Shown here: piece by piece, positions 19,050 through 56,291 of the stretch
How positions within the stretch are numbered: the first letter of the stretch is position 1
How the letters are laid out: every line of letters starts with the position of its first letter
NCBI RefSeq assembly: GCF_037975245.1
Contig: NC_092569.1
Span: forward strand, 28,925,668 to 28,989,667
DNA length: 64,000 nt
Source of the DNA: Apostichopus japonicus
Taxonomy: Eukaryota; Echinodermata; Holothuroidea; Aspidochirotida; Stichopodidae
Direction: 5' to 3'
Position numbers and translations under genes: made by a program
The notes under the pieces: generated by a model
Databases searched by the model: none
Seen by the model: the letters and a program-made list of their open reading frames with translations, nothing else
What the model was told of the DNA's origin: nothing

Positions 19050-19140
19050 ATGGAGAAAGGAGGATTAAAGCAGTGTCGATCACCTTTATTTATTCATCTT
19101 CTGATTGCTGTCATTCTGCTTCTTGGAGGAAGGTCTCAAG
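19050..19140 (+). CDS. FREP exon 1, signal peptide
   Basis: ATG opens MEKGGLKQCRSPLF followed by a hydrophobic stretch and GGRSQ. The exon ends in phase 1 before GTAGGC. Short N-region, hydrophobic core and small residues near the end fit secretion. Confidence 0.85.
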
Positions 19141-22100: not shown

Positions 22101-25100
22101 CGGAAGCGTAGAAGGGACATATTGATGAGATATATGCAACAACTCGCCAATATGAAAAGAAGTTGACAATTGACGTTTTTTCGGGATGTATGGAGATGAT
22201 ACCAAATCGTTCAAAATCTGAAAATGTATCTTTGTCGAGATACAAAACGTCAAGTTTCCGTTTATTGTCAGCTTGCAATATAGTCCCTCTTAATACAAGG
22301 TTATCTTCTTCTGCCAACGGAATATCCCTTTAAATCAACATGGAAACTATGAATTATTTATAATATATAATACTTCATCAAAGGTAGTTATCGCTTCATT
22401 CGAAATTCGTAATTTAAGTCACCACAGTCATACGAAATGCAATAGCAAGTTGTACAAGGGCAGAGTTAGAGCACATTGCCAGTCAAGTATCCCATCTCAA
22501 AATCTTATCCCTAACTCATGATATGGTCGATTGAATGGGACCAATTTCGACTGGTCAAACCCCTCATTCTTCCCTGGGATGGATCGTAGTGGGTAATCTG
22601 TGATGTCATTACGGCAAATGTTTTTCAAAACCTTTATTTTTCTATTATAATCTTCTTGTTCATTTATCCTTGATACAGTTGGAATGTTCGCTTAGCTGTC
22701 AAGGTTCTCTGCCATTTTAGAATTTCAACAAAATGCAACTGTTTTTTTTAGAGATAATACTTTCTCTGTAGAAACGTTAGTTAAAAATCATACAGAAAAG
22801 CAAAAAACATTTTCCGTTGGATTGCCATGATCATATAATTGACTCTTTTGTTGCCAGATGCATTGAGAAAGTTCCACTTCATTTTGTAAAAATTCATATC
22901 GTCACCTTATAACATTCTATGAGGGTGTGGGTTTTCCCTAAGGATGAAGAAATGTCAAGAATTTGTATTAAGCAGACAACTTTAGCCAGTGGAAGATATC
23001 CCTCTAAATATTCCTGTATGATGAAATAATTAAAGTTTTAAAGCTTCTCAATATAGAAGAAGTAAGTGTTCACATAGATCTGCTTACAGGGGTAGGATCA
23101 GGGGTGGGGGGAGGGGGACTGGGGCACACCCCCCACTTTTTTCCAAAAAGCAAATGGGCCCTACTGGCAAATACAATGTGCCCCTTTGATGAAGAACTGT
23201 CTTTTGGAATATCTTAAACATTTGTTAATTTTAATATATTAAAATTAATTATTTAGTTTTAGTCTGTAAATGTATGCTATTCTAAAATGACATCCCACAT
23301 CTTTTTGTAGCACGGTTAACAATAAACAATCTCAATAAATAAAAAAAAAATCAATGTTGCAGCTCATTCTACTAGGATATTATTCTATACTTGATGATGC
23401 CAAATCCTACTTCTGTGTCTAGAGTTTTGAGGCTATTGATGCATGCCTTGCTGTACTACAAAGGAGATTCACTGGAATTACTGCAGGGTCATATACAGTA
23501 CTAACCCATATGGAGGAAATTATAATTCTAAATGCAGCAAATGGCATAGCTTTTAAGATATCAGATCAGCTTGTGAAAACAGTCACCAGTGACATTGATT
23601 TTCCGCAGTTGGATGTACAGCTTAGGTTGTTAAGGGGTACTAATGTTCAGCAGTTTCCTGATTTGAAAAGAATTACATCAATGAGCACAATCATTTCTGC
23701 TATATAGCAGAAACACCCAAATGTCCAACCCTTACTTTCAGAACTTGCAAACTAATTCATATACTGTATATTTGTTGGCTCATTTAAGTACCGCTTCAGC
23801 TGAGAGATCGTTCTCCACACAGCGTCTTCTAAAGAGTTATCTGAGAAGCACAATGTCACAAAAGAGATACAACAATCTGATGTTATTGAATGCACACAAA
23901 TCTAAGACCGATGACTTGGATTTAACCGATGCTGCTAAAGACTTTTATTCAACGAATGAACACAGAAGGATTTTTTTGGAAAGTTCTAAATCATGGATGG
24001 AGAGAAGTACAGATGTAGGTTAATAGAGTCATTTGCACCATAACAGTATTGATAGCATACTAACACATCATATATACTTAAGTGATATGGCGATTGGCCG
24101 GCATGTGTATCGGTTTATAGCATAACGAATGGTGATTATGGAATGAGAAAGTGCCCCTCTGATGTTGTTCCCCCCTGGACTTTTTGGAAGCTTCCTACCC
24201 CTCTGAATGCTTACCTGTCTATTGCAGCAATAAGGTGGTCCACTACCTGGTTATTTCTCGGACTAAAAACCAAGGGCGTAAGAACCGGGGGCTGGGGGAG
24301 CCAGCCCCCCAGTAAAAAATATGGGGGGCGTGGAAGTATCATCCCCCCGCTTCGCAAGTCAGAAAACCCTTTTTTCATTTCCAAATTGAGAAAAAAATCT
24401 CATTTGGAGTACCAAATTGCATCTAAGGCCAGGTGAAAATGCAAAATTATTTACAAAATGGAGTGGGTGTTGAAGTGTGCTATATTGCACCAAATTGCAT
24501 ATGAGGCCACCTGGAAATGCAAAAAATTTCCAAAGGGGAGGGGGACACCCTCTCCCCTTAGACCCTCCCCCAGGCAGGCCATCAGTCTTCAGCCCCCCCC
24601 CCCCTACTCAAAAGTACCTTCCTACGCCAATGCTGAAAACGTCATTTAACATTATTTGCTTTAGTTCTCCGTTGTCATAGCATACAAGAAATTCATTTTT
24701 ATTTGAAGTTTTCTTTATTTTGATTCAATAATTTAAAACGATTACATGAATTATACACACTTTAGAAAAGAATTAGAACAATTTCCCGCTTGTAAAATAA
24801 AATAAAACTTGTTGATAAATTTATCGTAACTATTCCTGTAATGTTTCATGTGATTCTTGTTCAACAGCTGCTCGTTACAATCCTGGTCCATGCCCAGGGG
24901 CAGCACCGAAACCAAATGACCATGTTACAAAAGAAGGTAAGTTCAACAACGAAGCAGTAAACTAAAACTTTACACTAACCGTTACAGTTTAGGAAAAATC
25001 CACTAGAGTGACGTGCGCAGGATTTGGAAGTTGATGGGGGGGGGGGGGATTCTGTTACCGATTTAGGAAGAGCTTGACGTTTTATTGAAGGCCGTCCCCT

Positions 25101-28100: not shown

Positions 28101-31100
28101 GTAGCGTTCAATTTTTTTGGGCAAATATACCTCCCAGATCGCCGGAAATAACACTTCCCAGACCTAATGATGCTCCTAAACCTCCCTAAGTTTTAGATCT
28201 CATGGCTTAGAAATTTAGTTTGGAGAAATACATGGGTGTCTGCAGAAAGAAAATCAGGGGACAAATAATCCAAGAAGACTTTTGTATATATACGATGGGT
28301 CTGGGGTCCTCTCCCAGAAAACAAATATAGACTGCCGCAAATGCGATTTCCGTCCTATATTTAACAACTGTGGATAAAATACAATAAAATGAGAACTGCT
28401 GCATGTCATTTGCACAATGCTGGATCAAACTGCGCCAAAGTTCAATACAGGGGAACTTGAAATGCAGCTATTGGTCAAGACAAATTGGTGGGGACACGGT
28501 ATATCATGTCCCCACTACTGAGTTGGTGCCCGCTGTCCTCACCAGGATCTGCGCCCATGGTTTGGAGGCTGTTTATCGTGGAACGCCATTTTCATGCTCA
28601 CTGATATGATGTGATATCTGCTGTTTGCTTTACAAATTCGAATAATTTTGTCACTGTTCATCTTTCTCTTGCCGTTTTCCTGCCGTATTTTCTACTCCAT
28701 CCTTTTCTCCTTTTCTCTCTTTCTTCTTTTTCTTTTCCTTCCTTCACCTCGTTGAAGTTGGCAAGTGTATACAGTTCCAAAGCTATTCAACAGCAACAAA
28801 ACGTTATTTTGTGTATGTCTGTTGTGGGGTGAAGTTAGCGCTATGAGCTACAAGTTCCAATGCGCAAGGTGGGGGAAAGGGGCTAGAAATAATGTGTGGG
28901 TCAATTCTAACTCGGTTTTCGGTCGTTAATTGTTGAGGTAAAAGGTTGAAATGACTTTAACAATTTCAAATTTAATAATTTGATTTATTATGCCATTTGG
29001 AGCACATAAAATAGGCTATAACAGAACATTACTGGCAAAAACTAGGGGGGTTGATTGTGTGGGCCAACCCCCCTCTTCAAAAAGTGGGGGGTTAAAACCC
29101 CCCAATCCCCCCTGTTTCTCCGCCACTGGGTAAAGTTACCATAATTTGATAGAGTAGAGATCTGTGAAAACTATATGGTTAGCCTGTATTGTTAGACCTA
29201 TATTATTATATATACAGAGATATATGCATTGGTTCACTGTAATCACCATACCACCCTGACTTCATGCAAAGACAGTAGATTGCCCTCTTGTTTTGTTGGT
29301 GTACAGTGACTCCCTGTGTTCCCTTAAGTCGGGTACTGTGTTATACATATGTAGTTGCAGTGATAAACACTGTAGTCGCTGTCCTCTTTAGTCAAACTGT
29401 AACCACTTTTTCAATCCCAATTATAATCTACAAAGCCTTAACGGAAACAGCAAAAATTGCCATGTGATAAAGTAAACATCAGTTTTGTATCTTCAGACAC
29501 TTTCGTGGTTTATTGCACCCGTTCAGGGGAATTATACCGTAAACTGCAACACATGCCGTAAGTAAGGGAACTTTTTCCTTGTTTCAAGGAGTTAGATTCT
29601 CCCGACCTTTGCAAGTATAAAGTCTCTCTATTTCTGAGAACGGTCAAATATCCATGAAAATCTGAAGAATAGAAAAATCAGCGAGAGCTTAATCAAAGCT
29701 ATCCTATCAGAGAACAGTTATGCCCTAACCATCCCTAGTTTACCGTATATCATACTTGGAATTGTTGGTCAGAATTTGTCAATACGCTGGCACGGTAGAC
29801 AAGCCATGAGTTGATGTATTTATCAGAACTGATCTCTAAAAGGATCTGTCTGAAGTACTTCCAATTTGAGTACACTTAGATAGTACAGAATGATTGTATA
29901 TCACTAAATTATCGTACCTGATGTAAAGAGTCAGCAAAACGAGATATTTTTTTTTGTTTTCTTGTTTTAACGATAGCCAGCGAATCAGTGCAGACCACCC
30001 CAATGGAAACCACTACTGGTGATGATCCTTCTATCGTGGTGAGAATTACATACTTAATTACATACAATTTTGAAGTAAGAGAATATTGTGTTTGAGGAGT
30101 AAGATTTAAGATTCAAATTTTGATGATGATATGAGCAATTATGATATTGCCTGGCTGTACAATACTGTATGTTGGCTGTTAATTATCACTTCCAGTGTAG
30201 AAGAGAGATCTCACAGAAACAGCAAAGAAATAAGCTTGGAATACTGTAAATGAATAGAAAAAAATTGAAATTGGTATATTTTTTCCCCTTTGTCATCCAA
30301 TAGTAAAGATACCCTTGAAACTATTCGGTTACGATGTCACTCTTTGTAGGAGAGAAGGTTACATTTTGTGATTGGCATTAAAAGTACATTCCATGAATCT
30401 TGGAAACATTAACACTATCAGTAGAGTCAATTAGAACATTCTGTTTGTAATAGCTTAGAATCGTCAGAGATTTGCAATGAATTCGACACAAAGTATCAAG
30501 GCATCAATGTTTCCAGATTGCCTGAATTACCACCAAACAAAATGTCTGTCCATTGGAGTGCATATAGGATGAGGAACCTCCTTTCCATGTGACGTTAATG
30601 TTTCTTCCTCGTTCAGCATATTGTTCTGTAGGATTTTTGTTAGCTATTTTAATACTCCAATAAAAGTATGAAGAAAAAGCTGAATGATCGTGTACTGCTG
30701 TCAAAGGTCATATATTATCCTTAATAAGATAAGATATGTCACTTCATGGTTTGCTTGCTTGCTATTAAGTAACTTGTTATGTTATTATTAGATGAAAGAC
30801 TGCTTGGATGTCTTCAATGCTGGTAATACAACCGATGGCATCTACACAATCAAACCAACTAACTGGAATGGGGATTCATTTGATGTCTTCTGTAACATGA
30901 CTGACGGAGGAGGATGGACGGTAAGTCAAGTATGACATCCTAGTATACACGATATATTGTATATGTATAACATGACTGACGGAGGAGGATGGACGGTAAG
31001 TCTAGTATGACATCCTATAGTATAGACGATATATGTATAATATGATCGATGGAGGAGGATGGACGATCAGTCTAGTATGACATCCTATAGTATAGACGAT

Positions 31101-34100
31101 ATATTGTATATGTTATATGACTGACGGAGGAGGATGGACGGTCAGTCTAGTATGACATCCTATAGTATAGACGATATATTGTATATGTATAATATGACTG
31201 ACGGAGGAGGATGGACGGTAAGTCTAGTATGACATCCTATAGTATAGACGATATATTGTATATGTATAATATGACTGATGGAGGAGGATGGACGGTAAGT
31301 CTAGTATGACATCCTATAGTATAGACGATATATTGTTTATGTATAATATGACTGATGGAGGAGGATTGGCGGTAAGTCTAGTATGACATCCTATACTATA
31401 GACGATATATTGTATATGTATAATATGACTGACGGAGGAGGATGGACGGTAAGTCTAGTATGACATCCTATAGTATAGACGATATATTGTATATGTATAA
31501 TATGACTGATGGAGGAGGATGGACGGTACGTCTAGTATGACATCCTATAGTATAGACAGTATAGACGATGTATTGTATATGTATAATATGACTGACGGAG
31601 GAGGATGGACGGTAAGTCTAGTATGACATCCTATAGTATAGACGATATATTGTATATGTATAACATGACTGACGGAGGAGGATGGACGGTAAGTCTAGTA
31701 TGACATCCTATAGTATAGACGATATATGTATAATATGATCGATGGAGGAGGATGGACGATAAGTCTAGTATGACATCCTATAGTATAGACGATATATTGT
31801 ATATGTTATATGACTGACGGAGGAGGATGGACGGTCAGTCTAGTATGACATCCTATAGTATAGATGATATATTGTATATGTATAATATGGCTGACGGAGG
31901 AGGATGGACGGTAAGTCTAGTATGACATCCTATAGTATAGACGATATATTGTATATGTATAACATGACTGACGGAGGAGGATGGACGGTAAGTCTAGTAT
32001 GACATCCTATAGTATAGACGATATATGTATAATATGATCGATGGAGGAGGATGGACGATAAGTCTAGTATGACATCCTATAGTATAGACGATATATTGTA
32101 TATGTTATATGACTGACGGAGGAGGATGGACGGTCAGTCTAGTATGACATCCTATAGTATAGATGATATATTGTATATGTATAATATGGCTGACGGAGGA
32201 GGATGGACGGTAAGTCTAGTATGACATCCTATAGTATAGACGATATATTGTATATGTATAATATGACTGACGGAGGAGGATGGACGGTAAGTCTAGTATG
32301 ACATCCTATACTATAGACGATATATTGTATATGTATAATATGACTGACGGAGGAGGATGGACGGTAAGTCTAGTATGACATCCTATAGTATAGACGATAT
32401 ATTGTATATGTATAATATGACTGACGGAGGAGGATGGACGGTAAGTCTAGTATGACATCCTATACTATAGACGATATATTGTATATGTATAATATGACTG
32501 ACGGAGGAGGATGGACGGTAAGTCTAGTATGACATCCTATAGTATAGACGATACATTGTATATGTATAATATGACTGATGGAGGAGGATGGACGGTAAGT
32601 CTAGTATGACATCCTATAGTATAGACGATATATTGTTTATGTATAATATGACTGATGGAGGAGGATTGGCGGTAAGTCTAGTATGACATCCTATAGTATA
32701 GACGTTGTATTGTATATGTATAATATGACTGACAGAGGAGGATGGACGGTAAGTCTAGTATGACATCCTATAGTATAGACGATATATTGTATATGTATAA
32801 TATGACTGACGGAGGAGGATGGACGGTAAGTCTAGTATGACATCCTATACTATAGACGATATATTGTATATGTATAATATGACTGACGGAGGAGGATGGA
32901 CGGTAAGTCTAGTATGACATCCTATAGTATAGACGATACATTGTATATGTATAATATGACTGATGGAGGAGGATGGACGGTAAGTCTAGTATGACATCCT
33001 ATAGTATAGACGATATATTGTTTATGTATAATATGACTGATGGAGGAGGATTGGCGGTAAGTCTAGTATGACATCCTATAGTATAGACGTTGTATTGTAT
33101 ATGTATAATATGACTGACAGAGGAGGATGGACGGTAAGTCTAGTATGACATCCTATAGTATAGACGATATATTATATATGTATAATATGACTGACGGAGG
33201 ATGGACGGTAAGTCTAGTATGACATCCTATAGTATAGACAGTATAGACGATGTATTGTATATGTATAATATGACTGACGGAGGATGGACGGTAAGTCTAG
33301 TATGACATCCTATAGTATAGACAGTATAGACGATATATTGTATATGTATAATATGACTGACGGAGGAGGATGGACGGTAAGTCTAGTATGACATCCTATA
33401 GTATACACGATATATTGTATAGGTATAATATGACTGACGGAGGAGGATGGACGGTAAGTCTAGTATGACATCCTATAGTATAGACGATGTATTGTATATG
33501 AATAATATGACTGATGGAGGAGGATGGACGGTAAGTCTAGTATGACATCCTATAGTATAGACGATATATTGTTTATGTATAATATGACTGATGGAGGAGG
33601 ATTGGCGGTAAGTCTAGTATGACATCCTATAGTATAGACGATGTATTGTATATGTATAATATGACTGACAGAGGAGGATGGACGGTAAGTCTAGTATGAC
33701 ATCCTATAGTATAGACGATATATTGTTCATGTATAATATGACTGATGGAGGAGGATTTGGCGGTAAGTCTAGTATCACATCCTATAGTATAGACGATGTA
33801 TTGTATATGTATAATATGACTGACGGAGGAGGATGGACGGTAAGTCTAGTATGACATCCTATAGTGTAGACGATATATTGTATATGTATAATATGACTGA
33901 CAGAGGAGGATGGACCGTAAGTCTAGTATGACATCCTATAGTATAGACGATATATTGTTCATGTATAATATGACTGATGGAGGAGTATTTGGCGGTAAGT
34001 CTAGTATCACATCCTATAGTATAGATGATATATTGTATATGTATAATATGACTGACAGAGGAGGATGGACGGTAAGTCTAGTATGACATCCTATAGTATA

Positions 34101-37100
34101 GACGATATATGGTATATGTATAATATGACTGACGGAGGAGGATTGACGGTAAGTCTAGTATGAGATCCTATAGTATAGACGATGTATTGTATATGTATAA
34201 TATGACTGACAGAGGAGGATGGACGGTAAGTCTAGTATGACATCCTATAGTATAGATGATGTATTGTATATGTATAATATGACTGATGGAGGAGGATGGA
34301 CGGTAAGTCTAGTATGACATCCTATACTATAGACGATATATCGTATATGTATAATATGACTGATGGAGGAGGATGGACGGTAAGTCTAGTATGACATCCT
34401 ATAGTATAGACGATGTATTGTATATGTATAATATGACTGACAGAGGAGGATGGACGGTAAGTCTAGTATGACATCCTATAGTATAGACAGTATAGACGAT
34501 ATATTGTTCATGTATAATATGACTGATGGAGGAGGATTTGGCGGTAAGTCTAGTATCACATCCTATAGTATAGACGATGTATTGTATATGTATAATATGA
34601 CTGACGGAGGAGGATTGACGGTAAGTCTAGTATGACATCCTATAGTATAGACGATATATTGTATATGTATAATATGACTGACAGAGGAGGATGGACGGTA
34701 AGTCTAGTTTGACATCCTATAGTATAGATGATATATTGTATATGTATAATATGACTGACAGAGGAGGATGGACGGTAAGTCTAGTATGACATCCTATAGT
34801 ATAGACAGTATAGACGATGTATTGTATATGTATAATATGACTGACGGAGGAGGATGGACGGTAAGTCTAGTATGACATCCTATAGTATAGACAATATATT
34901 TTATATGTATAATATGACTGACAGAGGAGGATGGACGGTAAGTCTAGTATGACATCCTATAGTATAGACGATATATGGTATATGTATAATATGACTGACG
35001 GAGGAGGATTGACGGTAAGTCTAGTATGAGATCCTATAGTATAGACGATGTATTGTATATGTATAATATGACTGACAGAGGAGGATGGACGGTAAGTCTA
35101 GTATGACATCCTATAGTATAGATGATGTATTGTATATGTATAATATGACTGATGGAGGAGGATGGACGGTAAGTCTAGTATGACATCCTATACTATAGAC
35201 GATATATTGTATATGTATAATATGACTGATGGAGGAGGATGGACGGTAAGTCTAGTATGACATCCTACAGTAAAGACGATATATTGTATATGACTGACGG
35301 AGGAGGATGGACCTTAATTCTAGTATGATATCCTATGTCATAAATATGGTTAAGTTTGCCTCCAAAGTGTCGTTATTCTGTGGATATTGTCAGATTATAA
35401 GCACCAGAAGTGTGCTCTGTACAATAGTTATACACACATTCTCATTGACAGTTCCTTTAATCTTACGTATTCACACTGGTCAACAGGATCACTTTGGTCG
35501 ATTGGTACGGAATTAGTTTGTGACGCAATGGTCAGGGGTTCTGTTCCTACCTATAGGTCTACATTTGAAGTGGCAGTGAATTTGCTAGAAACAAATAAAC
35601 ATCCGTTGGAATAAGAAACAAGTTTTGACACAATAAACTTCCAGTAATTTCTACTTCTTACTTTTCTTTACTAACTTTGAACCTCCAGAAGTCCACTTGA
35701 GATCATTACAGTGTTTGATTCCATTGTCTATGAATTGGGGATTGTCAGAGTAGATTCAGAGTAGATGGTTTGCTCTCTTGATATAGATTTAGAGTTTATT
35801 ACAAAAGCAATCTGTCTGTCGCAATACTAGGCCCATTCTCTCCGCAAATGAGGCCAGTTTTGGTTTGTTGAAGTAATCATTTCAAACCAGAGCTGAGCCC
35901 AAATCATTAAAAGTGTTTCTGTTCCAAAGCGAATAGTATGGAAGTTTGAAAGTAAGATTCCATTATTTGTAATGGGACAGAGTTCAGACATTAGCAACAG
36001 TATCCAACGTTGGTCTGAATATCTATTACACACACAGACATTAGAACAGTTTTCATTCATGGTCTGTGAACAATCAACTATGGTGAGAAGATGGTGAAAT
36101 TCACTTTGCTCTAAAATGCCACTTAACAGAAGGGTGAATTACAGTTCAGAATGGATTTAATTTGGAAGATTATGTTACTGCTCATTCACAGGTCATCCTT
36201 AGGTTCGTTCTACAAAGAAGTTAAATGCACTTTCTCATTGAAATGTTATTGAAAATAATTTGGAATTATCTTTTCATTCTTACATTATATACAGGTATTC
36301 CAACGTCGTGTTGATGGCTCCGTTGACTTCTATCGTAACTGGACCAGCTATAAGGAAGGCTTTGGTGTGCTGGACCATGAGTATTGGTTGGGAAATGATA
36401 AGTTGTATTACCTCACCAATCAAGGTGACTATCAATTTCGGATCGATATGGTGAACAAAGATGGAGCTCCATACTACGCAAAGTTTGACTTGTTCCGGAT
36501 CAACGATGAAAGTGACAAGTACAGACTGTCTGGACTGGGAACTTTTAATGGAACTGCAGGTTTGTCCAAACTATAGGTTTCTCTCTGTGTTTGTTGTATA
36601 CAACTTCACTGTACTATTAAATGTCATGTTCTGTTTTTTTATTTCTTTGGATGTCATTTATTTTTCTGGTTCCTTGCTGGAAGCAGAGGAACCTATGCAG
36701 TCAAGTTTGTGTGTGTGTTTTTTGTGCGTCTGTGACGCTTGCTGAAGTCCGCCGTGGTGGAGTGATGGATATTTGTCATACTCAATGTGTAGGTGTGTTA
36801 TAATGAGAAGGTGTGCCCTATTGGTTTTGACGCTGACCTTATGAATATTAATGAGATTATAGAGCCAAACCTAAAAATCTTTACATTGCAATAATTCTGC
36901 AACATTAAGTTGGATTGTAGCCAAATTTGGTTTAGAATTGTTAGTTCATTGCTGGCCCGTACATATAGGCCTAAATTTTGGGGCAATCTGGGTCTAAAAA
37001 CTTCCTAGCCCCTTTTTTGGGCCAGGTCTGCCCACATTTTGTTTCCACCTCAAATGCATTTTGGGACACATTCTTTGGGTCCGAATTTGAGGGGCCCATT

Positions 37101-40100
37101 ACTTTTTGAACCAGTTGGGCCCACATTTGTGATCTGTAAAGACATCACATAAATCAAGCATGATTAGGCCTACTGACAGTGAAAATGCTAATACATAACA
37201 TGCAGTTCATAAACCGAGCAAAATGACAGTCAATGCAGCAATGAAAAGACATAGAAACCATGTTCGTACAGTGACATGCTAAGGTATCACACATAGACAA
37301 GAACAACTTGCTAACAGTGATAAGCTGAGATATAACATGACTCAAATATAACAGTGATATGTGATGTAGACTGTCACAGAGATTAAGGAAACATGTCCTG
37401 ATATACGGTGATATGTAATGTAGACTGTCACAGATTAAGATGCATGTCCTGCTATGTAGTGATATGTGATATAGACTGTCACAGAGATTAAGCATAAATG
37501 TTTTGCTGTGTAGTGATATGTGATGTAGACTGTCACAGATTAAGATACATGCCCTGCTGTGTAGTGATATGTGATGTAGACTGCCACAGAGATTAAGCAT
37601 AAATATCCTGCTCTGTAGTGACACGTTATGTAGGCTGTCACAGAGATTGAGCATGCATGGCCTGCTGTACGGTGATATGTGATGTAGACTGCCACAGAGA
37701 TTAAGCATAAATATCCTGCTGTGTAGTGACATGTTATGTAGACTGTCACAGAGATTTAGCATACATGTTCTGCTGTATGGTGATATGTGATGCAGACTGT
37801 CACAGAGATTTAGCATACATTATAAATCAATAAAGATTTCTTTATTCCGTATTCCTGTAATCCAAAGATTATTCAACGCAGAAGTAATGTTGAGTCGATT
37901 CGTGGTTTATTAGCTTTGATATCTGGTAACTATCTGGTAATCTGTTAATCTGCTAAACTGTCAATCTGTCAGTCTGGTAAATAAAATCTTTGGTTTAACA
38001 CTGGAAAATACTTCTTGCTTCAATACGTTCTTGATATCGACTGAACTCAAATTACGGTAAATGAACGTAAAGACAGAACCAACGAAAACAACAAATTTCA
38101 AACACATACTCACGCACGCACGCACACTCGCACAAACACGCACACGCGCAGTAGCACTGCAACTTTACATGACGCACACTTCGTAACAATACACAAACAA
38201 CACATCGTGTGAGCGCGTTTACACTCCCCCCTGTTAAATCATATGGATTTCACACACATTTACAACCAATCAAACAATTTAGTACACTGAGACAAAGTAA
38301 TATATATTCAAAGAAAAATCAACAATGAGACTAATCAGACATTCTCTTTACAATACACAATTTCGTAATCGGTCTTTTGAGTATTTTATTACGAACCTTA
38401 ACCCCAACGCTTCTTACTTTCCCATCGCTACTCTTGAAAACTGTATGGATTCTAGCTAAAGGCCATTTTCCGCGTGGAATTGTTTCGTCGGTGAGGAGAA
38501 CTATGTCCCCAATGACAACATTTTCTTTCGGAACATTCCACTTATGGCGTTTTTGGAGGAGAGGCAGATATTCTTTCCGCCATCTCTTCCAAAACAAGGA
38601 AGCAAGGTATTGTACTTGAAGCCACCTTTTACGCCCGTAAGAGACTCCTGCGTCAACTGGGGTGTCTGGCCCATGTCTCATCAAAAGCAGGTGGTTCGGA
38701 GTAAGAGGCTCCTCATCTTTTGGATCTGAGGAGAAGTCAGTGAGAGGTCTTGAGTTGAGAATAGATTCAACCTCGGCTAGTACAGTAGTAAGAACCTCAT
38801 CAGTGACCGTTTGCTGCCTCAGGACGCCTCTTAGAATCCTTCTTACCGACCTAATAAGCCTTTCCCATGCTCCTCCGAAATGGCTGGCTGTAGGAGGGTT
38901 AAAGTGCCACTCACAACCTTTACTATGAAAAAAGGCTTCTACATCATCTTTATTCATGGCTTTAAAAGCATTTCTCAGCTCTTTCTCGCCAGCTTGGAAA
39001 TTAGAACCATTGTCGCTAAAAATCTTAACTGGCTGACCTCTTCTTGCTACAAAACGTCTGAAAGCATTAAGGAAGGAATCAGCATCAAGGGATTCACAAA
39101 CTTCCAAATGAACAGCTCTGGAGGACAAGCAAGTAAAAATGCAACCGAACCTCTTTACGGTCGAGCGACCTCTTTTCGCTTCGAATGGCCCAAAATAGTC
39201 CACGCCGACAAAACTAAAAAGAGGTTTGTCAGAGGAGACTCTCTCCGAAGGCAATGCGGCCATTATCTGACAAGAAGGCCGTGCAAGGATCTTACGACAA
39301 ATAACGCACTTACTTACTACACTCTTCACTGCTGTTCGACCATTCAGTAGCCAAAACTTCTGCCGAATGGCACTTAACGTCATGGCCAATCCACCATGAC
39401 CTACCGACTCATGATAATATCTAATAATGAGTGTGACTACTGCTCCCCTAGGGGGCAAGATAATTGGGTGCTTAACGTCAGTTCCCAAATCAGCATTGTC
39501 GAGACGACCCCCCGCTCTAAGTACATTTCCAAGAAGAATGGGTTTGAGTTTAAATAATCGCTGGTCACGCTGCCAGGATTTAAACGCCGATTTTTGGACC
39601 CATGAAATTATGGTAGTTTCACTCGCTTCGATTTCTGATACAGACAGATTTATGCCACTTGCTGCCAATGAACCTCTACACTTATTAACAAAGCGAAAGA
39701 CCCAAGCTAACACCTTGACTAACTTGGTCCACGATGAAAACCTGGAGATTAACTGCTCAGAAAAATTATCATTAACTAAAGTAGTTACATTAAGAAAAAC
39801 AGACTTTCCTATTTCTGTGTCTCCAGACAAATCAATATCATCATGTTTCAGTGAAGGCCATGCGCTTTCTTTCTTCGAAAGGAAACTTGGGCCGGAGAGC
39901 CACGTTCCTAAATCATACGTACCCCTCGAGCCATCATCGGCTGGGTTTTCTTTGGAGCCTACATGTCTCCATTGATTTGGAGAGGAGAACTCATGAATCT
40001 TGGACACTCGGTTCGCAACGAAGGTTTTAAATCGCTTATCCTCGTTGCGAATGTACCCAAGGACAATCATTGAGTCCGTCCAAAATATAACATCATCGAG

Positions 40101-43100
40101 ATCAAACCTAATCTCTTGTTTGATCGACGTGTACAACGTCACTGCAAGAACCGCGCCCATTAACTCGAGCCTAGGAATAGACACGGGCTTCATTGGGCTG
40201 ACTTTGGCCTTTCCTTGAATGAATGAGCAGCTTGCTTCACTGTCAGCACCTATCACGCGGAGATATGCCACTGCAGCATATCCTCTCTGAGATGCGTCAC
40301 AAAACACGTGAAGCTGGACGCGCTGTGCGTTATCTAACTGTAGCCAACGAGGGATCTGTATAGATGAAAGAAGAGGAACATTTTGAAGCCACTTCTTCCA
40401 TGTCACAAGTTCTTCGTCCGTCAAGGGTTTGTCCCAATCAGACCCTTTGCGACAAATATCTTGTAAGAGGCACCGAGCAATGACAACAAAGGGAGCAGCA
40501 AAACCCAATGGGTCAAAGATCGAGCTTGATATTGACAATAACCCTCGCCTTGTAAAGGGTTTGTCGGGCAACGACACGTTGAATAGGAAATTGTCATTTT
40601 CGGCATTCCAACTTACTCCCTGTGTTCGCTCAGTTGGAAGAGTCTCCAGGCTATTACGTAAATTTGGAGCTCTTTCGGACTCTGGAATGCTTTGGAGAAC
40701 GGCACGATCGTTACTAACCCACTTCGTGAGTCTAAAGCCGCCCTTACTTAAAATACTTCTAATGCGTTCCACAACTTCTATTGCAACAGTTGGATCATCG
40801 ACTGAAGCCAGAAGATCGTCTACATAGAAGTTGTTCCTTATGAACTGAATGGCTTTCTTACCTACAATGTCCTGATTATGTAACTCGTTGTCCCTGGCCG
40901 TGCGCTGTAACGCATAGCCGGCGCAAGCTGGACTTGACGTGGCACCAAAGAGATGCACCGTCATTCTATATTCGAGCGGTTCACTTTCTAGATTACCGCC
41001 AGGCCACCACAAGAACCTGAAGACATCGCGGTCTTCGCTTATTACCTGCACTTGGTGAAACATTGCCTCTACGTCAGCAACTAGTGCAATTCGCTGCTGC
41101 CTAAATCTGTGGAGAACACCCACGAGACTGTTTATCGTGTCTGGGCCCTTCAATAAACACGAGTTTAATGAAGTATCCCTCCACTTCGCTGCACAATCAT
41201 AGACTACTCTGGCCTTCGTCTTTGTGGGGATGAACAACTGGATGGTGAGGCAGGTACCAAACATTACCAGCCTTACCTTCACCTTGAACCCGTTCGGCAT
41301 AACCTTTCGCAATGTAACCTTCTACGGTTTCTGTATACTTTTGACGCATTACATTGTCTCTTATTAGCTTACGTTTTATGTTTCTTAGACGTGATTCAGC
41401 TAACGGTTTATTGGAAGGCAAGAAATGGTTATTGTCCTTCCACAGAAGTCCTATCTGGTAGTGACCTTCACTAGTAAGTGAGGCAGTAGATTCTAATATA
41501 CCTTTGGCTCTCTTGTCTTGGACAGAATCACCTTCGCCAATACGCGCATCGTCTACAGACCAAGAACTTTTAAGTAAACTTAGAATCTCTCCATTCGAGC
41601 AACAAGATATGCGATGGATGTTCTTTCTATCGCTACGACCACTGAAACCTGTAGGACCCATAACAGACCAACCAAGGGGTGTTTTTACTCCATACGGATC
41701 TCCCGTTCCACCACGCCTCTCATCCGTAACCCAAAATGCTTCGGGAACATCCGCCCCTATAAGTAGCTCAAGATTGTATCTTGAGATATCCCCTCAGGGA
41801 ATAAGTTTCAAATGTTGCCACCGGTTGAGGTCTCGAGCAGAGGGGACACTATCATCACTCTTGGGTAGTTTTGGAACAGAAAGAGCAGTTATTGGCAAAT
41901 CATTACTTTCATTCTCCCCTTTAACGGTAATATCAAATGTTGAACCGATCTTAGGTTCGACTCCGTTAACCGTCGAAGACGTGTAAGACGTCGGTTTTCC
42001 CTTAACACCTAACTTCTTCCTAAGGGATTCTGAACACAGAGTAGTGTCTGACCCACTGTCCAAAATAGCCAGGGTATGCACCCGATTACCATTGTTACCG
42101 GTCACTGTAACCGGCAGAATTCTCAAGAAAACGTTACTACCACAAACAGCGGTGTTTGACATAACAGAGATATTCTCTTGATTGGGTGGAGGATGAAGTA
42201 GATCATTGTGTTTGTTAGACTGACAAAACGGGCAAACGGTATCCCTTCTACATTTAGCCACCGAATGACCAGGAAATAGACACCTAAAACACAACCTCTT
42301 TGTCCTAACAATGTCTAGCCTCTGGTTGTAACTCATGTTGCAGAACGACTCACAGTCAAAAATCCTATGATCATCATCACAGGCAAAACACTTAAGAGAT
42401 CTACCTTTCATAAAATTAGATTTCACGCGAGGTTTCTCGTCACTCACTACGCTACTCGACTTGCCTGTGTGAAGCGTATTCTAGTTATTGTCATTGTGAA
42501 GCGTATTCTAGTTATTGTCATTATGACGTCACCCATGGCTCATTTTAGGTAGTTCGGGAACGGTAAACCCGGCCTTACACTGATACCGTAGATCCGAGCG
42601 TGAAACGTGAAATAATCAGGAAAAGCGGGTACTGGATAATATATGTCTTCTTTTATTGATTCAGGATAAAACTATAACTTTGGAACTTGAGATAATTAAA
42701 ATGTGAAGAGCCCGAAGTCCACAGACGTAAATATAAATTACGGAGCCTACTGTTCTACGTCTGTAGACTTCGGGAGATAAACTTCAACTCCTCGATAAAT
42801 CTTTAAGAAACACTTAAACCCCTGATTCCAAAATAACAAATTAAGACGCGTTGCACAGGGCACACGCTCTGCCCTTGAACCCGATTGGTGTAAACTTTTA
42901 ACTCACCCCTTACCAAACTCTTGATTGGTTGAGTGCCAACCTGATATGCAGATGAGCATATGCAAATACGCTTCACACATGTGTGAAGCGTATTCTAGTT
43001 ATTGTCATTGTGAAGCGTATTCTAGTTATTGTCATTATGACGTCACCCATGGCTCGCGCATTGGTGGTTTGCGCTGTGGTGTGGCGGGATATAAATCACG

Positions 43101-46100
43101 CACTATTAGAAGCGTATCTTTTGTTTTAAATGATTCGGGGTTGGAAGACAGCCAAACTGGTTCAAATTGGTTGAGTGCCCATTTGCATATGCTCATCTGC
43201 ATATCAGGTTGGCACTCAACCAATCAAGAGTTTGGTAAGGGGTGAGTTAAAAGTTTACACCAATCGGGTTCAAGGGCAGAGCGTGTGCCCTGTGCAACGC
43301 GTCTTAATTTGTTATTTTGGAATCAGGGGTTTAAGTGTTTCTTAAAGATTTATCGAGGAGTTGAAGTTTATCTCCCGAAGTCTACAGACGTAGAACAGTA
43401 GGCTCCGTAATTTATATTTACGTCTGTGGACTTCGGGCTCTTTACATTTTAATTATCTCAAGTTCCAAAGTTATAGTTTTATCCTGAATCAATAAAAGAA
43501 GACATATATTATCCAGTACCCGCTTTTCCTGATTATTTCACGTTTCACGCTCGGATCTACGGTATCAGTGTAAGGCCGGGTTTACCGTTCCCGAACTACC
43601 TAAAATGAGCCTTACACCTATATTCCTACCAAACATGTTAGACGAAATTTCAGCTTGACCTGTCAGATACGATAGAAGGTCATTAAATTCTGGTTCTCTA
43701 CTCTCATGTATCTTTTGGGCGACATTTGCCCACCCAGTTTGAAGATAAACAGGTAACAAACTGTGAATCTTAAGAAGGTTACTTGTTGAATTTAGGTCAT
43801 TTACATACCCCATCTGAGTTAAGGTAACGTAACACCTCTGCATTTCGGATATGAGCTTCCACAAGCTTTCTCCGTCATTAGCCTTAATCGATTTGCGACT
43901 AACCAATTTACTCATCAAAGAATTCAGAATCAGATGCGGTTGACCAAATTGACGTTTCAAAATTGCCTTCGCGCTTTCGTAACCTTCGTCGCCTAGAAGC
44001 TCGCAACTTTCGATGCAGAAACGCGCTTTACCTTTACATAGCTGCAGCAAATACTGCAAACGCGCGGCATCACCGCTCAATTTACTTGCCACGTTAACTT
44101 CGAAATTGGTTATGAAGTACCAATAATCTGTGGGGTCTCCATTAAACTCAAATACCTCAGCCTTCGGTAACTCTAATGCCAATTTGAGTTCGTTAAACCG
44201 GAATACATAGTTGGAATCACAACTAGAACTATACCTATTTGAACTTAAATGTAGAAGACCTTCACCATTCTTCATGTCTACGTTACTATTATTACCATCG
44301 GTAATATCATTAACTTCCTTAGAGCTAACACAATGACTAACGTTACTATTCTTAGTAAAAATACCGTTATCATCATTGTCGGTTAACCTCTTTTCCTCGT
44401 CGCCTTCGGGAGCTTCTGAGATCCTCTCGGGCCCTTTTCTGCTTAGGTCTACATACCTCTCGACTTCGATCTTTACGGCGATGAACTTGCTGACTACGTC
44501 CGCCATCCATTCTTCTTCCAAAATAAACTTATCTTCTTCCAAAAGCTTTTCAATCACAGCTTGATGGGCCTCTTCTATTGCTTCTAAATTTTTATTCGCT
44601 TTCTCTAAGAGTTCCTTCACAGAGTCTATTCCTGCGTCCTCTCTAATGAGAGTAGAAATAGAATTAATTGCTCTAGTCAAGGTTCCCTTCTTATTCCTGC
44701 GCCGTATTAACAGCGTCTTCATCGTAAGGGCCTCGTCTGTTGACATCTTCAATTATAGATTTTATTTACTATAAATCAATAAAGATTTCTTTATTCCGTA
44801 TTCCTGTAATCCAAAGATTATTCAACGCAGAAGTAATGTTGAGTCGATTCGTGGTTTATTAGCTTTGATATCTGGTAACTATCTGGTAATCTGTTAATCT
44901 GCTAAACTGTCAATCTGTCAGTCTGGTAAATAAAATCTTTGGTTTAACACTGGAAAATACTTCTTGCTTCAATACGTTCTTGATATCGACTGAACTCAAA
45001 TTACGGTAAATGAACGTAAAGACAGAACCAACGAAAACAACAAATTTCAAACACATACTCACGCACGCACGCACACTCGCACAAACACGCACACGCGCAG
45101 TAGCACTGCAACTTTACATGACGCACACTTCGTAACAATACACAAACAACACATCGTGTGAGCGCGTTTACATACATGTCCTGCTGTGTTGTGATATGTG
45201 ATGTAGACTGTCACAGATATTAAGCATGAATGTCCTGCTGTGTAGTGATTTGTGATGTAGACTGTCAAAGATATTAAGCCTACATGTCCTGCTGTGTAGT
45301 ATAATGTGATGTAGACTATCACATTGATTAAGCATCAATATCCTGCTGTGTAGTGACATGTGATGTAGACTGTCACAGAGATTAAGCATGAACCTCCTGC
45401 TGTGTAGTGATATGTGATGTAGACTGTCACAGAGATTAAGCATGAACCTCCTGCTGTGTAGTGATATGTGATGTAGACTGTCACAGAGATTAAGCATGAA
45501 CCTCCTGCAATCTCCTGCTGTGTAGTGACATGTGATGTAGACTGTCACAGAGATTAAGCATGAACCTCCTGCTGTGTAGTAATATGTGATGTAGACTGTC
45601 ACAGAGATTAAGCATATATGTCCTGCTGTGTAGTGATATTTGTGTTGTAGGCTGTCACAGAGATTCAGCATGGATGTCCTGCTGTGTAGTAATATTTGAT
45701 GTATGCTGTCACAGAGATTAAACATAAGGTCAAAGTTCATTTGAGGTCAATAGCTCCTGGTTAACTTAGTAGTGTAAAATTTGCACTTACAGACTTAGAA
45801 GTGGAATGTAGATTTGCTTAAAATGAGTAACCCTTATTGATTGTAAAGAGGTAAAAAGTCATTGAGGTCAACATTGATAAGTACTGAAGACTTTGTTGCC
45901 AGGCTCACATGGTGTTAACTTGGATGTGTCTCACACACTGTATGTAAGTTGCCCTTGGTGAGTACAAAACCTACTAATACTGTCAAAGATCAAAGGTCAT
46001 TAAGGTCAGCATGGATCAAAATCTTGTAGCACCGCTCAGCTAAGTGGTAAAAATGTGGATGAATCAAATTATATGAATTTCTTATTTGGTATATTTTGGA

Positions 46101-47327
46101 ATTGTTGATGCCAACTCGTTGGTGCCAATTTGAATGAATGTGGCATTGACTTGGTTGTTATTAAGTTCATTATGTAAACCTTTTTTAACAGGGATTAATT
46201 TAGTTGGCAGGGATTCACCAAACTTTTTTGGTTCGTGGTTCAAATGTTTTTGTTGAAAAATGGAGATTCTTCAATTATATATTACCCCCAACGTTTAGGG
46301 CTAGAGTATGTTTTTTGTATAGTCTCTGTACTGTAGGTGTCAGGTTTATGTTGACTACTATATATATGTACTGTATAGTATTGAGATAAATTGTCATCCG
46401 TAGTTACAGAACATGCTGCAAGGTTGTAAGAATAATAGTTGTGAAACAGAGGGAGTTACGTTACAATATACAAATTAAACTTTGCTTTATTGGAACTCAA
46501 TTGTGTTGTGACGGATGTACAATTTGCAGATGTAAATCCATCATCAAAAAATGTATGTCCATCACACAAAAACTTTGCGAAAATATCGCATGAAGGTGAT
46601 CAAATTTAAATTTGATTTTACTGCTTATTCTAGTTTAAGGTCTTATTAACATGATACATGTAAGCTTTTAATTATTTAACATTCCATATCCCAGTGATCT
46701 ACAATAAGATTTATGATCTGAAAAAAAATCACTTTTTCAACGTACGTCCGTCACCGGGTGGTTTTTTTAACAATTTTGTGCGGCTTATAAGGAGGTAAAA
46801 AATGAAAACCCCACAGCATAATATTGGAAGGCAGATGACAAACAATATCCAAATTAAAAGTTACCTCATATAAATACTCATTGAGATATGAACCAATAAA
46901 CTATCCGAAATGTACGTCCGAGTTTACGGAACTGCCCAGATTCAACTTAATATATCCAATCATATTTACTAATTGTTTAATGTGTCTATATTGTGATAGG
47001 TCCCTTAATTGTGATGGATTGTAGTTTAAGGGAATATCTTTACTTGTTTAATTCACAGACAGAGATAGACGTTACCCTGGTGGTTATGCTTTGAGTTATC
47101 ATCTTAACTCTGCCTTTAGTACCTTTGACAGGGACAATGATAAAGCAAACAGATCTAACTGTGCTGCTTATCAGCATAGTGCCTGGTGGTACAAGAGCTG
47201 TGCAGCATCTAACCTCAATGGTAACTATATGGCAGCAGATGATGATAGATCAAGCATATACTGGTATGATCTACCTGGAGGTCGATATAACATCAAATAC
47301 ACAGAAATGAAGATAAGACCCATCTAG
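19050..47327 (+). CDS. Secreted fibrinogen-related protein (FREP, ficolin-like), 6 exons
   Basis: Coding exons are 19050-19140, 24868-24936, 29977-30038, 30792-30920, 36295-36559 and 47059-47327. Phases match at every junction and give 294 residues. Residues 1-30 form a signal peptide with hydrophobic core LLIAVILLL. Residues 31-74 are a short Thr/Pro-rich linker with two Cys-poor exons. From about 75 there is one fibrinogen-like domain: MKDCLDVF, NMTDGGGWT, VFQRRVDGSVDFYRNW, YWLGND, FSTFDRDND (calcium loop), NCAAY, AWWYKSC and SNLNG. Such proteins bind acetylated or other sugars on microbes and act in innate immunity of echinoderms and molluscs. Binding specificity here is inferred. Introns are filled with mobile DNA, and intron 4 is an array copied from the end of exon 4. 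No collagen stretch or coiled coil is seen. Confidence 0.92.
19141..23086. other. FREP intron 1, unassigned part
   Basis: AT-rich intron. Short open frames (19310, 20267, 21256, 21613 and others) lack family features and codon consistency. C-rich runs occur at 19465-19485. I see no bounded element here. Confidence 0.5.
23087..24205 (+). mobile_element. hAT element remnant, 1.1 kb, with transposase fragment
   Basis: The ends CAGGGGTAGGA and, inverted, CAGAGGGGTAGGA are hAT-like. The flanking octamers tctgctta (23079-23086) and aatgctta (24206-24213) agree at six of eight places. It contains the transposase remnant at 23425-24023. The rest is G/C-run and AT-rich sequence. Confidence 0.65.
23425..24023 (+). 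pseudogene. hAT transposase C-terminal fragment (ZMYM1-like)
   Basis: A first open part reads FEAIDACLAVLQRRFTGI through to a TAG at 23705-23707. A second, shifted part (23721-24023) carries the hAT C-terminal dimerisation signature ASAERSFSTQRLLKSYLRST and LDLTDAAKDFY. The catalytic core is missing. At least one stop and one frame change make it non-functional. It belongs to the same broad family as the triplicated fragments at 12.9-15.1 kb but is clearly diverged from them. Confidence 0.8.
24271..24632. mobile_element. hAT-type MITE (family M1, copy 1)
   Basis: Ends CAAGGGCGTAAGAACC and, inverted, CATTGGCGTAGGAAGG. Flanked by ctaaaaac (24263-24270) and ctgaaaac (24633-24640), seven of eight identical. 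It matches 53877-54236 along its whole length, including 'cttcgcaagtcagaaaaccc'. No coding function. Confidence 0.85.
24868..24936 (+). CDS. FREP exon 2, linker
   Basis: This 69-nt exon between TTCAACAG and GTAAGT, phase 1 to phase 1, encodes AARYNPGPCPGAAPKP and NDHVTKE. It has no domain and is Pro/Ala-rich. Confidence 0.75.
24937..27287. other. FREP intron 2, unassigned part
   Basis: G and C runs at 25036-25047 and 25240-25248. No exon or bounded element recognised between exon 2 and the hAT element. Confidence 0.45.
27296..29128. mobile_element. Non-autonomous hAT element, 1.83 kb, perfect 8-bp target duplication
   Basis: Ends CAGTGGTGGAGATTTC and, inverted, CAGTGGCGGAGAAAC. The octamer ggtaaagt flanks both sides exactly (27288-27295 and 29129-29136). 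No transposase frame is visible. The central ~1.1 kb matches 52673-54362. A sub-block around 27380-27560 ('ctatctaag.ggagcgc.acca') is also shared with the MITEs at 57689 and 63443. It lies in FREP intron 2. Confidence 0.8.
29137..29976. other. FREP intron 2, 3' part
   Basis: No element or exon recognised. A T-rich tract at 29947-29966 precedes the exon 3 acceptor. Confidence 0.45.
29977..30038 (+). CDS. FREP exon 3, Thr-rich linker
   Basis: This 62-nt exon between CGATAG and GTGAGA runs phase 1 to phase 0. It encodes SESVQTTPMETTTGDDPSIV, probably an O-glycosylated spacer. Confidence 0.75.
30039..30791. other. FREP intron 3
   Basis: 753 bp, no repeats of note. It ends TTATTATTAG before exon 4. 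Confidence 0.6.
30792..30920 (+). CDS. FREP exon 4, start of fibrinogen domain
   Basis: A 129-nt, phase 0-0 exon encoding MKDCLDVFNAGNTTDGIYTI and ending NMTDGGGWT, the first conserved block of fibrinogen C domains. Its last 27 nt and donor GTAAGT are the source of the 77-bp array that follows. Confidence 0.95.
30894..35337 (+). repeat. 77-bp minisatellite copied from the exon 4 end and its splice donor
   Basis: The unit is 'aatatgactgacggaggagg' + 'atggacg' + 'gtaagtctag' and ~40 bp of AT-rich intron ending 'gtatatgtat'. The first unit is the real end of exon 4 (30894-30920) with its donor. More than 50 units follow without interruption to about 35337. Nearly every unit keeps GGACG|GTAAGT, so each carries a potential 5' splice site. 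Variants (gatcgatgg, gattggcgg, gatttggcgg, units with an extra acagtatag, a short unit with ttatatgactg) recur in blocks, which shows duplication of several units at a time. Reading on from exon 4 meets TGA at 30933-30935. No acceptor with a pyrimidine tract lies in the unit. Confidence 0.97.
35338..36294. other. FREP intron 4, 3' part
   Basis: Unique-looking AT-rich sequence leading to the exon 5 acceptor 'ttatatacag'. No other feature recognised. Confidence 0.5.
36295..36559 (+). CDS. FREP exon 5, fibrinogen domain core
   Basis: A 265-nt exon encoding VFQRRVDGSVDFYRNW, GFGVLDHEYWLGND, LTNQGDYQFRIDM, and so on to GLGTFNGTA. It ends in phase 1 at a weak donor GTTTGT. The reading phase and domain order leave little doubt. 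Confidence 0.95.
36700..37100. repeat. Diverged copy of the head of the ~395-bp repeat family
   Basis: 'tgtgtgtg..gcgtctgtgac.cttgct' and 'gagaaggtgtgccctatt' echo 6830-6960 in the same order. Coding potential is nil. Confidence 0.5.
37160..37820. repeat. 54-bp minisatellite, left of the BEL/Pao insertion
   Basis: The unit contains 'tgctgtgtagtgatatgtga' and 'gactgtcacagagattaagc', repeated about 12 times. On the minus strand it gives a 220-codon open frame with an 18-residue repeat, which is a repeat artefact. The array continues at 45173 beyond the retrotransposon. Confidence 0.9.
37821..38223 (-). repeat. BEL/Pao 3' LTR
   Basis: 403 bp. On the element strand it begins TGTAAACGCGC and ends TTGATTTATA. 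It contains a CA-rich 'gcacgcacgc' stretch. No difference from the other LTR was seen by eye. Confidence 0.92.
38224..38232 (-). other. Polypurine tract of the BEL/Pao element
   Basis: AGGGGGGAG on the element strand, directly next to the 3' LTR. It is the expected primer site for plus-strand DNA synthesis. Confidence 0.75.
38331..41793 (-). pseudogene. pol: BEL/Pao pol: reverse transcriptase, RNase H, integrase (one frameshift)
   Basis: The main frame (41312-38331, 993 codons) holds RT with VADVEAMF and the catalytic YVDD at about residues 163-166. RNase H follows with FCDASQRGYAAV, FWTDSM and NPADDGSRG. Then come the integrase zinc module (H-H-C-C, YHESVGHG to CVICRK) and a DDE core with GVDYFGPF, SDNGSNF and GGAWERL. 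It ends with a basic tail. The N-terminal RT part lies in another frame (41793 to about 41230). The shift occurs at a run of four G on the plus strand at 41226-41229, where the frames would agree with one base fewer. Apart from this shift the domains look intact. The homopolymer could also be a sequencing error. Confidence 0.92.
41794..42465 (-). pseudogene. gag: BEL/Pao gag C-terminus and aspartic protease
   Basis: Begins beside the foldback insertion. It carries two zinc-knuckle-like Cys clusters (CFACDDDHRIFDC and CFRCLFPGHSVAKC) and a protease active site LAILDSGSDTTLC. It ends at TGA (41796-41794). The frame continues open in phase past this stop into DISRYNLELLIGAD, the usual protease-RT linker of BEL elements, so the stop is either a mutation or a read-through point. 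Confidence 0.85.
42466..43611. mobile_element. Long-inverted-repeat (foldback) element inside gag
   Basis: Two 431-bp arms (42537-42967 and 43181-43611) are inverted copies of each other with few or no differences. A 213-bp spacer separates them. A 76-bp direct repeat (42466-42541 and 42980-43055), itself holding a tandem 27-bp unit (gtgaagcgtattctag...), lies outside the left arm and again in the spacer. Each arm has an inner hairpin around 'cccgaagtc.acagacgta'. No target duplication is clear and no protein is encoded. It interrupts gag and so is younger than, or arrived with, the retrotransposon. Confidence 0.85.
43038..43096 (+). promoter_or_regulatory. CRE-like site and TATA-like box in the foldback spacer
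   Basis: TGACGTCA at 43038-43045 and ATATAAAT at 43089-43096 are about 44 bp apart in the unique spacer. A second TGACGTCA lies at 42524-42531. The arrangement could start transcription rightwards through the right arm, antisense to gag. This is motif evidence only. Confidence 0.3.
43612..44752 (-). pseudogene. gag: BEL/Pao gag N-terminal part, interrupted
   Basis: ATG at 44752. About 380 residues with a coiled-coil-like N-terminus (KELLEKANKNLEAIEEA) and the capsid-type segment FNGDPTDYWYFITNFE typical of BEL gag (DUF1759 type). The true frame stops at the inverted-repeat insertion after FGRNIG. The few further codons belong to the insert. Confidence 0.85.
44770..45172 (-). repeat. BEL/Pao 5' LTR
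   Basis: 403 bp, seemingly identical to the 3' LTR. It would hold the promoter of the element, read towards lower coordinates. Confidence 0.92.
45173..45740. repeat. 54-bp minisatellite, right of the BEL/Pao insertion
   Basis: Continuation of the array at 37160-37820, about ten further units. One unit has a short internal duplication ('ctcctgcaatctcctgctg' near 45507). Confidence 0.9.
45741..47058. other. FREP intron 5, 3' part
   Basis: The start has 'aggtcaaagttcatttgaggtcaata', weakly like the ~395-bp repeat family. The rest is AT-rich with no exon recognised. Confidence 0.45.
47059..47327 (+). CDS. FREP exon 6, calcium loop and C-terminus
   Basis: Starts after TTCACAG in phase 1. It encodes RDRRYPGGYALSYHLNSAFS, the DRDND calcium loop, NCAAYQHSAWWYKSC, SNLNGNY, and ends KYTEMKIRPI then TAG. 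It lies 10.5 kb from exon 5 because of the BEL/Pao insertion and repeats in intron 5. Confidence 0.95.
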
Positions 47328-48280: not shown

Positions 48281-48545
<265 letters not shown>

Positions 48546-56130: not shown

Positions 56131-56291
56131 TGAAAATCATGCTAAGCTAAATACCAATAAGGTCTAGTTTCTTCCATTTCATTAGTACAACTGAAGAAGA
56201 GCCGTGTAAACGCTCGAAATATTTTGTCACCTATTTAACGTTCTAAGTAATAAAGTTGGAAATGAAAGTATCATTTTTTCCATTTTTTTCT

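Follow-up and report, generated by a model that had tools for sequence, protein, structure and literature searches.

A 64,000-nucleotide stretch of the sea cucumber Apostichopus japonicus genome (assembly GCF_037975245.1, contig NC_092569.1, positions 28,925,668 to 28,989,667 of the forward strand; hereafter the window, numbered from its first letter) carries a fibrinogen-domain gene of the FREP family in which a 77-bp minisatellite starts at the end of coding exon 4 and repeats that exon end, together with its 5' splice site (donor), into the following intron. The same array stands behind most of the sister exon ends examined, its units vary freely, and between distant paralogs it is more alike than the genes that carry it. 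The reading favoured here, to which we assign a probability of about 0.6, is that of a minisatellite spreading within the FREP family at one exon boundary, with the first donor normally used and the downstream donors tolerated as decoys.

Tandem Repeats Finder reported a single array at 30893-35292 (period 77, 57.0 copies, 91% matches, score 7241), which wrap-around alignment resolved on the + strand as 57 full units and one partial unit at 30893-35336; period and copy number agree with the definition of a minisatellite as tandem units of 10-100 bp given in the part of the source considered (PMC11506328). Unit 1 comprises the last 28 nt of exon 4, the real donor (GT at 30921-30922) and further intron. 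The preliminary description, made from the letters of the window, had reported over 50 tandem copies directly behind the real exon, the first of them being the real exon end and nearly all keeping the donor, and each of these statements holds; it had also traced part of the unit to the end of exon 4, rightly, but had given that part as 27 nt. GT is retained in 54 of 58 units and the exact GTAAGT in 50 of 58, and 50 of the 68 + strand GTAAGT motifs in the 64-kb window fall inside the 4.4-kb array, an excess beyond chance. At 31066, 31759 and 32058 GT is lost through the same G-to-A change inside four-unit blocks that resemble one another, and these internal losses were apparently copied through block duplications; the remaining loss, at 35315, lies in the terminal partial unit (35287-35336), whose donor is degenerate (ACCTTAATT). 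Unit-by-unit differences show that units 11-14 and 15-18 (31661-32258) are one four-unit block present twice and resembling units 2-5, and further block copies link units 22-25 with 27-30 and 42-46 with 53-57, which indicates growth by multi-unit exchange. Such duplications, and the difficulty of assembling the copy number of a 77-bp array, are also what would be seen if an assembly artefact had inflated the count, but the units differ at many sites and arrays of varied length occur at 58 separate exon ends, which makes that explanation extremely improbable.

Use of any downstream donor would lead the spliced frame into a TGA at 30933-30935, the fifth codon of the intron, as had been proposed; each of the 57 downstream donor positions gives one identical predicted product of 121 amino acids, ending in WTVSQV. 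Coding use of the array itself was considered, as open frames between stops exist, and was rejected because 77 is not a multiple of 3 and reading past exon 4 meets the TGA. Two protein models that map best to array genes join exon 4 to exon 5 at the first donor: P0007 matches exons 4-6 of array gene L014 at 100% (junction GGGWT-VFQRR) and P0047 matches exons 4-5 of array gene L024 at 97-100% (junction GGGWT-VLQRR), both being protein or gene models rather than RNA evidence. A search with the predicted 121-residue truncation, covering proteins of 0.55-1.75 times the query length, returned six database matches, none of them an A. japonicus protein ending in WTVSQV or WTVSLV. Two entries from short contigs (P0122 and P0123, source lgn) continue as WTVSL and could represent genomic read-through.

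The distribution of the array was assessed by pattern searches of the 671.6-Mb genome (35 contigs, the window lying on contig C9). A 21-mer across the exon end and donor occurs 722 times, in clusters at about 77-bp spacing and as singles, and a degenerate exon-end pattern occurs at 124 places, 100 of which were listed; at least four of the listed places are array units (two on C2 and two at C9:26.48 Mb). The ends examined comprised all 48 of the TTCTG type (the window's own included), all 14 of the TCCTG type, L042 and 12 of other types, about 45 of the 124 pattern places lying outside the reading and L012 and L014 outside the pattern. In the DNA read, at least one further unit follows 58 of the 65 ends of array-bearing types, near-copies L009/L010 and L027/L028 counted among them; the array is thus present in the sister FREP genes, where the preliminary description had suggested looking for it. 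Array-bearing ends lie on C2, C7, C8, C9, C11, C15, C18 and C21, that is, on seven contigs besides C9. Among the seven array-less ends, three (L045, L047, L057) have an intron that opens like a unit before other sequence interrupts it, and the introns of the other four (L011, L054, L055, L080) are unrelated; among exon ends of other types, no array was found in the 14 sampled (L017-L022, L031-L033, L036-L040). Where read to the end, arrays range from about 2 to 58 units, the lengths of the 21 that reach the edge of the fetched piece being lower bounds; for seven ends (L083-L089) the reading covered just 181 bases, and the census counts exon ends, not every copy having been checked as an intact gene.

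The exon end is very uniform at synonymous sites, array-less genes included: its three glycines are written GGA-GGA-GGA in 90 of the 100 listed ends (counted from the list). The first donor is an exact GTAAGT in 51 of 58 cases against 297 of 381 internal units (Fisher P 0.08); the count of GT at first donors is no result because the search pattern required GT. First donors that depart from GTAAGT were seen in L034 (GTTAGT), L087 (GTAACT) and L026 (GTATGT), with GTAAGT units behind them, and these might be the genes in which a downstream donor could matter. Some loci are unusual in other respects. In L012-L014 (C7) a transposon-like insert, whose ends are CATAGACGTAGGAG and CTCCTACGCCTATG or near to them, splits the first unit, and the next unit follows 349-551 bp on instead of 77. 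L015 (C8:36976500-36986499) is an array with no recognisable exon 4 or 5 in the adjoining fetched DNA, only a last exon, in L030, standing beside it, and L090 and L091 (C9:26.48 Mb, 181 bases each) are array stretches that begin in array sequence, not in an exon.

The case for spread comes from comparing the divergence of arrays with that of the genes around them. Identity to the window is 93-96% for the introns and exons of near paralogs (L009, L012-L014) and 90-96% for their arrays, whereas in distant paralogs (L023-L027) intron 3 and the post-array part of intron 4 have no BLAST match to those of the window (E 1e-3), the exon 4 body is 73-79% and exon 5 76-87% identical, and the array is still 88-92% identical. 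Of the 42 arrays with four or more units (near-copies and L015 counted in), 28 share one and the same majority unit and the remaining 14 depart from it at 1-3 of 77 sites, and consensus difference is uncorrelated with exon distance (r 0.01, 820 pairs of 41 loci); these exon distances are ungapped over 59 nt, with one indel locus inflating the top bin, and the BLAST comparison is the better one. Single units depart from the common consensus by 3.8-6.6% in each of seven groups, and across 43 arrays the mean difference between units is 6.26 of 77 within an array against 6.90 between arrays. At the same time, 172 of 422 units find their closest relative nowhere but in the array they belong to, where array size would predict about 5%. 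Sites therefore change freely and local turnover is present, while all arrays point to one master sequence. Since units vary freely and the consensus is nevertheless the same in diverged genes, the arrays probably postdate the separation of the paralogs, and spread from one paralog to another at the same boundary best explains the mismatch.

Alternatively, the array may be old, present in the common ancestor of all array genes, with its unit kept by selection instead of spread. The donor and ATGACATCC blocks are slow to change, and on a tree of the exon (70 rows, 80 columns) array presence is clustered, with 6 changes of state against 16.4 in shuffles and well-supported branches forcing 2. An old array should however show, in the absence of turnover, unit divergence matching the split of the genes; the units differ by 4-7%, in genes whose introns have become unalignable. 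Units within an array differ nearly as much as units of different arrays, and positions 59-76 are the most variable, yet their consensus is unchanged in distant paralogs. An ancestral, selected array accordingly appears rather unlikely.

Another role for the array would be that of a recombination substrate which shuffles exons 1-4 with exons 5-6 and so diversifies the FREP repertoire. Among 17 VFC-type proteins, distances in exon 4 and exon 5 correlate at r 0.23 against r 0.70 for exons 5 and 6, and P0042 is closest to different loci on its two sides. This contrast is not general: correlations are low throughout in the MEKGG subset (0.17, 0.03, -0.22; 9 proteins), the array-less intron included, six VYC-type proteins lack it (0.36, 0.32), and at the DNA level exon 4 and exon 5 distances agree well (r 0.88, 11 loci). 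Exon shuffling through the array is therefore regarded as very unlikely.

Selection on the downstream donors was evaluated in the internal units of 47 arrays, leaving out L010, L028, L015, L045, L047, L057 and arrays of fewer than three units, as well as the real exon unit and 6 degenerate units. GT is kept in 367 of 381 of these units and GTAAGT in 297; GT has changed in 14 units, through 9 events, while the unit's other GTs show 24, 18, 54 and 24 events, and 9 for the GT at +5/+6. The donor GT is the ninth slowest of 76 dinucleotides, eight others by events and ten by cells being as slow or slower, some of them distant from the donor, with several located in the ATGACATCC stretch. With 29 events, position +3 belongs to the sites that vary most, and the full GTAAGT, at rank 37 of 72, changes no more slowly than the average. 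In the array of the window alone, donor sites vary like the remainder of the unit and GT is not conserved. A random-offset test on 20 genic arrays gave P 0.008 for GT events, 0.05 for cells and 0.37 for GTAAGT events, and with one common offset for all of these arrays GT ranked 8 and 11 of 76. Conservation of the donor is thus suggestive at GT, and none is seen over GTAAGT as a whole.

These results bear on the possibility that the array regulates splicing, as a ladder of donors that are each accompanied by a GGAGGAGGATGG exon-end element and compete for U1, and through which the animal might switch a share of its transcripts to the truncated or decayed form, for instance upon immune challenge. 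Donors are indeed kept, four of the unit's five other GTs change faster than the donor GT, and harmful donors would be expected to be purged, yet they remain. The variability of +3, the eight equally slow dinucleotides, the average rank of GTAAGT and the lack of GT conservation in the window array argue in the opposite direction, as does the absence of the predicted truncation among the A. japonicus proteins found in the search. Folding gave no clear sign of structured RNA either: two short pieces were no more stable than shuffles (z -0.03 and 0.29), and a 150-nt stretch was weakly more stable (z -1.48). Overall, a regulatory ladder is considered unlikely. Much the same standing is given to a mixed account, in which a satellite homes to one splice boundary across the family, through homology to the exon end that the paralogs share, and some genes have come to use it as a ladder of donors that sets the proportion of full-length to truncated FREP.

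Under the favoured reading of a spreading exon-boundary minisatellite, a 77-bp segment containing 28 nt of the exon 4 end, the donor and some intron would have been duplicated in tandem in one gene, and the array would then have expanded and contracted via multi-unit exchange and either spread to many paralogous genes or been overwritten from one to another, at this same boundary. The simplest route would be recombination or conversion in which the exon end, being almost invariant, acts as guide. In splicing, the donor at the end of the defined exon would normally be chosen, the downstream copies acting as tolerated decoys whose occasional use may yield a 121-residue protein truncated at WTVSQV or a decayed transcript. 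The preliminary description had offered tuning of splicing, holding of the U1 particle, or simple growth of a satellite from an exon-boundary seed. Best supported is the third of these, because units vary freely, multi-unit blocks are duplicated and donor conservation is at most weak; 'simple' growth is nevertheless insufficient, because the same boundary is involved in 58 of 65 sister ends and the arrays are more alike than distant paralogs are.

Several observations weigh against this reading. The event rate at GT is 0.40 of the mean (bootstrap 0.19-0.65), 2.5-fold below it, leaving room for some selection for donors. Ancestral letters tend to survive in a majority consensus, and this weakens the argument from consensus units, though not that from BLAST; the exon tree is built on few columns, and its 6 changes are compatible with several gains or with a single gain followed by losses. 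Dominance of the first donor in RNA is suggested by gene models, and the case of P0007 is weakened by the insert that separates exon from array in L014. Moreover, P0121 (A. japonicus, 182 amino acids) stops six residues after the exon-4 end (WTIMRSF), in letters unlike those of the array, P0051, an old gene model, starts in array-like sequence and joins exon 5, and P0084 and P0056 start at an ATG that is also present in most units.

The closest known counterpart is the minisatellite of the human interferon-induced gene 6-16 (IFI6/G1P3), reportedly described by Turri, Cuin and Porter in 1995, which is said to begin at a natural coding exon end and to consist of an in-frame 12-bp unit that adds codons. 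In the part of the source considered, two of its downstream repeat units act as donors, producing three mRNA species (PMC4526556). The sea cucumber array likewise begins at a natural coding exon end (exon 4), lies in an immune-related gene and offers several donors through units with a consensus 5' splice site. It differs in its unit of 77 bp, which is not a multiple of 3 and brings an in-frame stop, in its occurrence across dozens of paralogs with as many as about 58 copies, and in the evidence of spread between them; furthermore, use of several donors in mRNA is reported for IFI6, while the present case is known from DNA and gene models. The sea cucumber array would work on the IFI6 principle, without being classed as a full member. 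Tandem alternative donors, which provide several possible donors for one acceptor, and recursive splice sites, which need AG directly before GT, are related in the same respect, namely several possible donors facing one acceptor. Recursive splice sites were considered and rejected, the unit consensus having ACG before GTAAGT, hence no AG before GT, and the array containing neither CAGGTAAGT nor AAGGTAAGT.

The host gene in the window consists of six exons with GT-AG introns on the + strand and, when spliced, has an intact open frame of 294 amino acids. Exons 1 (19050-19140, with the start codon), 2 (24868-24936), 3 (29977-30038), 5 (36295-36559, VFQRRVDG...) and 6 (47059-47327, with the stop TAG at its end) were placed by tblastn of A. 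japonicus fibrinogen-like protein A models and by the spliced open frame; the N-terminus of exon 1 is hydrophobic and signal-peptide-like by appearance. Exon 4 (30792-30920), placed by PF00147 and the spliced frame, holds the start of the fibrinogen C-terminal domain and ends ...NMTDGGGWT in phase 0, before the real 5' splice site GTAAGT (30921-30926), assigned from the sequence and the spliced open frame. At the acceptor, previously given as 36294, the AG does end there, but exon 5 begins at 36295. A draft of the joined domain matches Fibrinogen_C (PF00147, E 6.4e-67, 226 bits against a cut-off of 22), and this domain in an intact spliced frame places the gene in the FREP family; the closest proteins among the matches listed are annotated 'fibrinogen-like protein A' of A. 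japonicus. The gene's own protein (19050-47327) is not among the 120 of 2572 database matches listed, the best of which reaches 85% over the whole draft query, despite the intact frame of the gene.

Other repeats and mobile elements occur in the same window. Intron 5 contains a BEL/Pao-type retrotransposon on the - strand (37821-45069), with matches to Peptidase_A17, DUF1759, DUF5641 and integrase, flanked by two identical 300-nt direct repeats (37821-38120 and 44770-45069), from which its insertion is probably recent; a 54-bp minisatellite lies on both sides of it (37353-37820 and 45176-45725), as if the element had inserted into the minisatellite. A CATCAT repeat of 265 bp (98% matches) is located at 48281-48545 and a 400-bp tandem unit in 3.6 copies at 8983-10398. 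Two adjacent open frames on the - strand (55107-56141), of which 55107-55628 matches GIY-YIG just under the cut-off, may belong to a Penelope-like element.

The host genes of the arrays belong to the expanded A. japonicus FREP family, which, in the part of the source considered, is the greatest expansion in the genome and is up-regulated in visceral regeneration; exon-boundary repeats are not described in that part (PMC5638244). In dozens of gene copies of one animal, the spliceosome is confronted with 2 to about 58 almost equivalent donors for each acceptor, so that ordinary RNA data from these genes could reveal how a 5' splice site is chosen. Moreover, a tandem repeat seems to pass from paralog to paralog at one precise exon boundary while the surrounding genes diverge and, if downstream donors are used, a change in copy number would alter the output of an immune-type gene.

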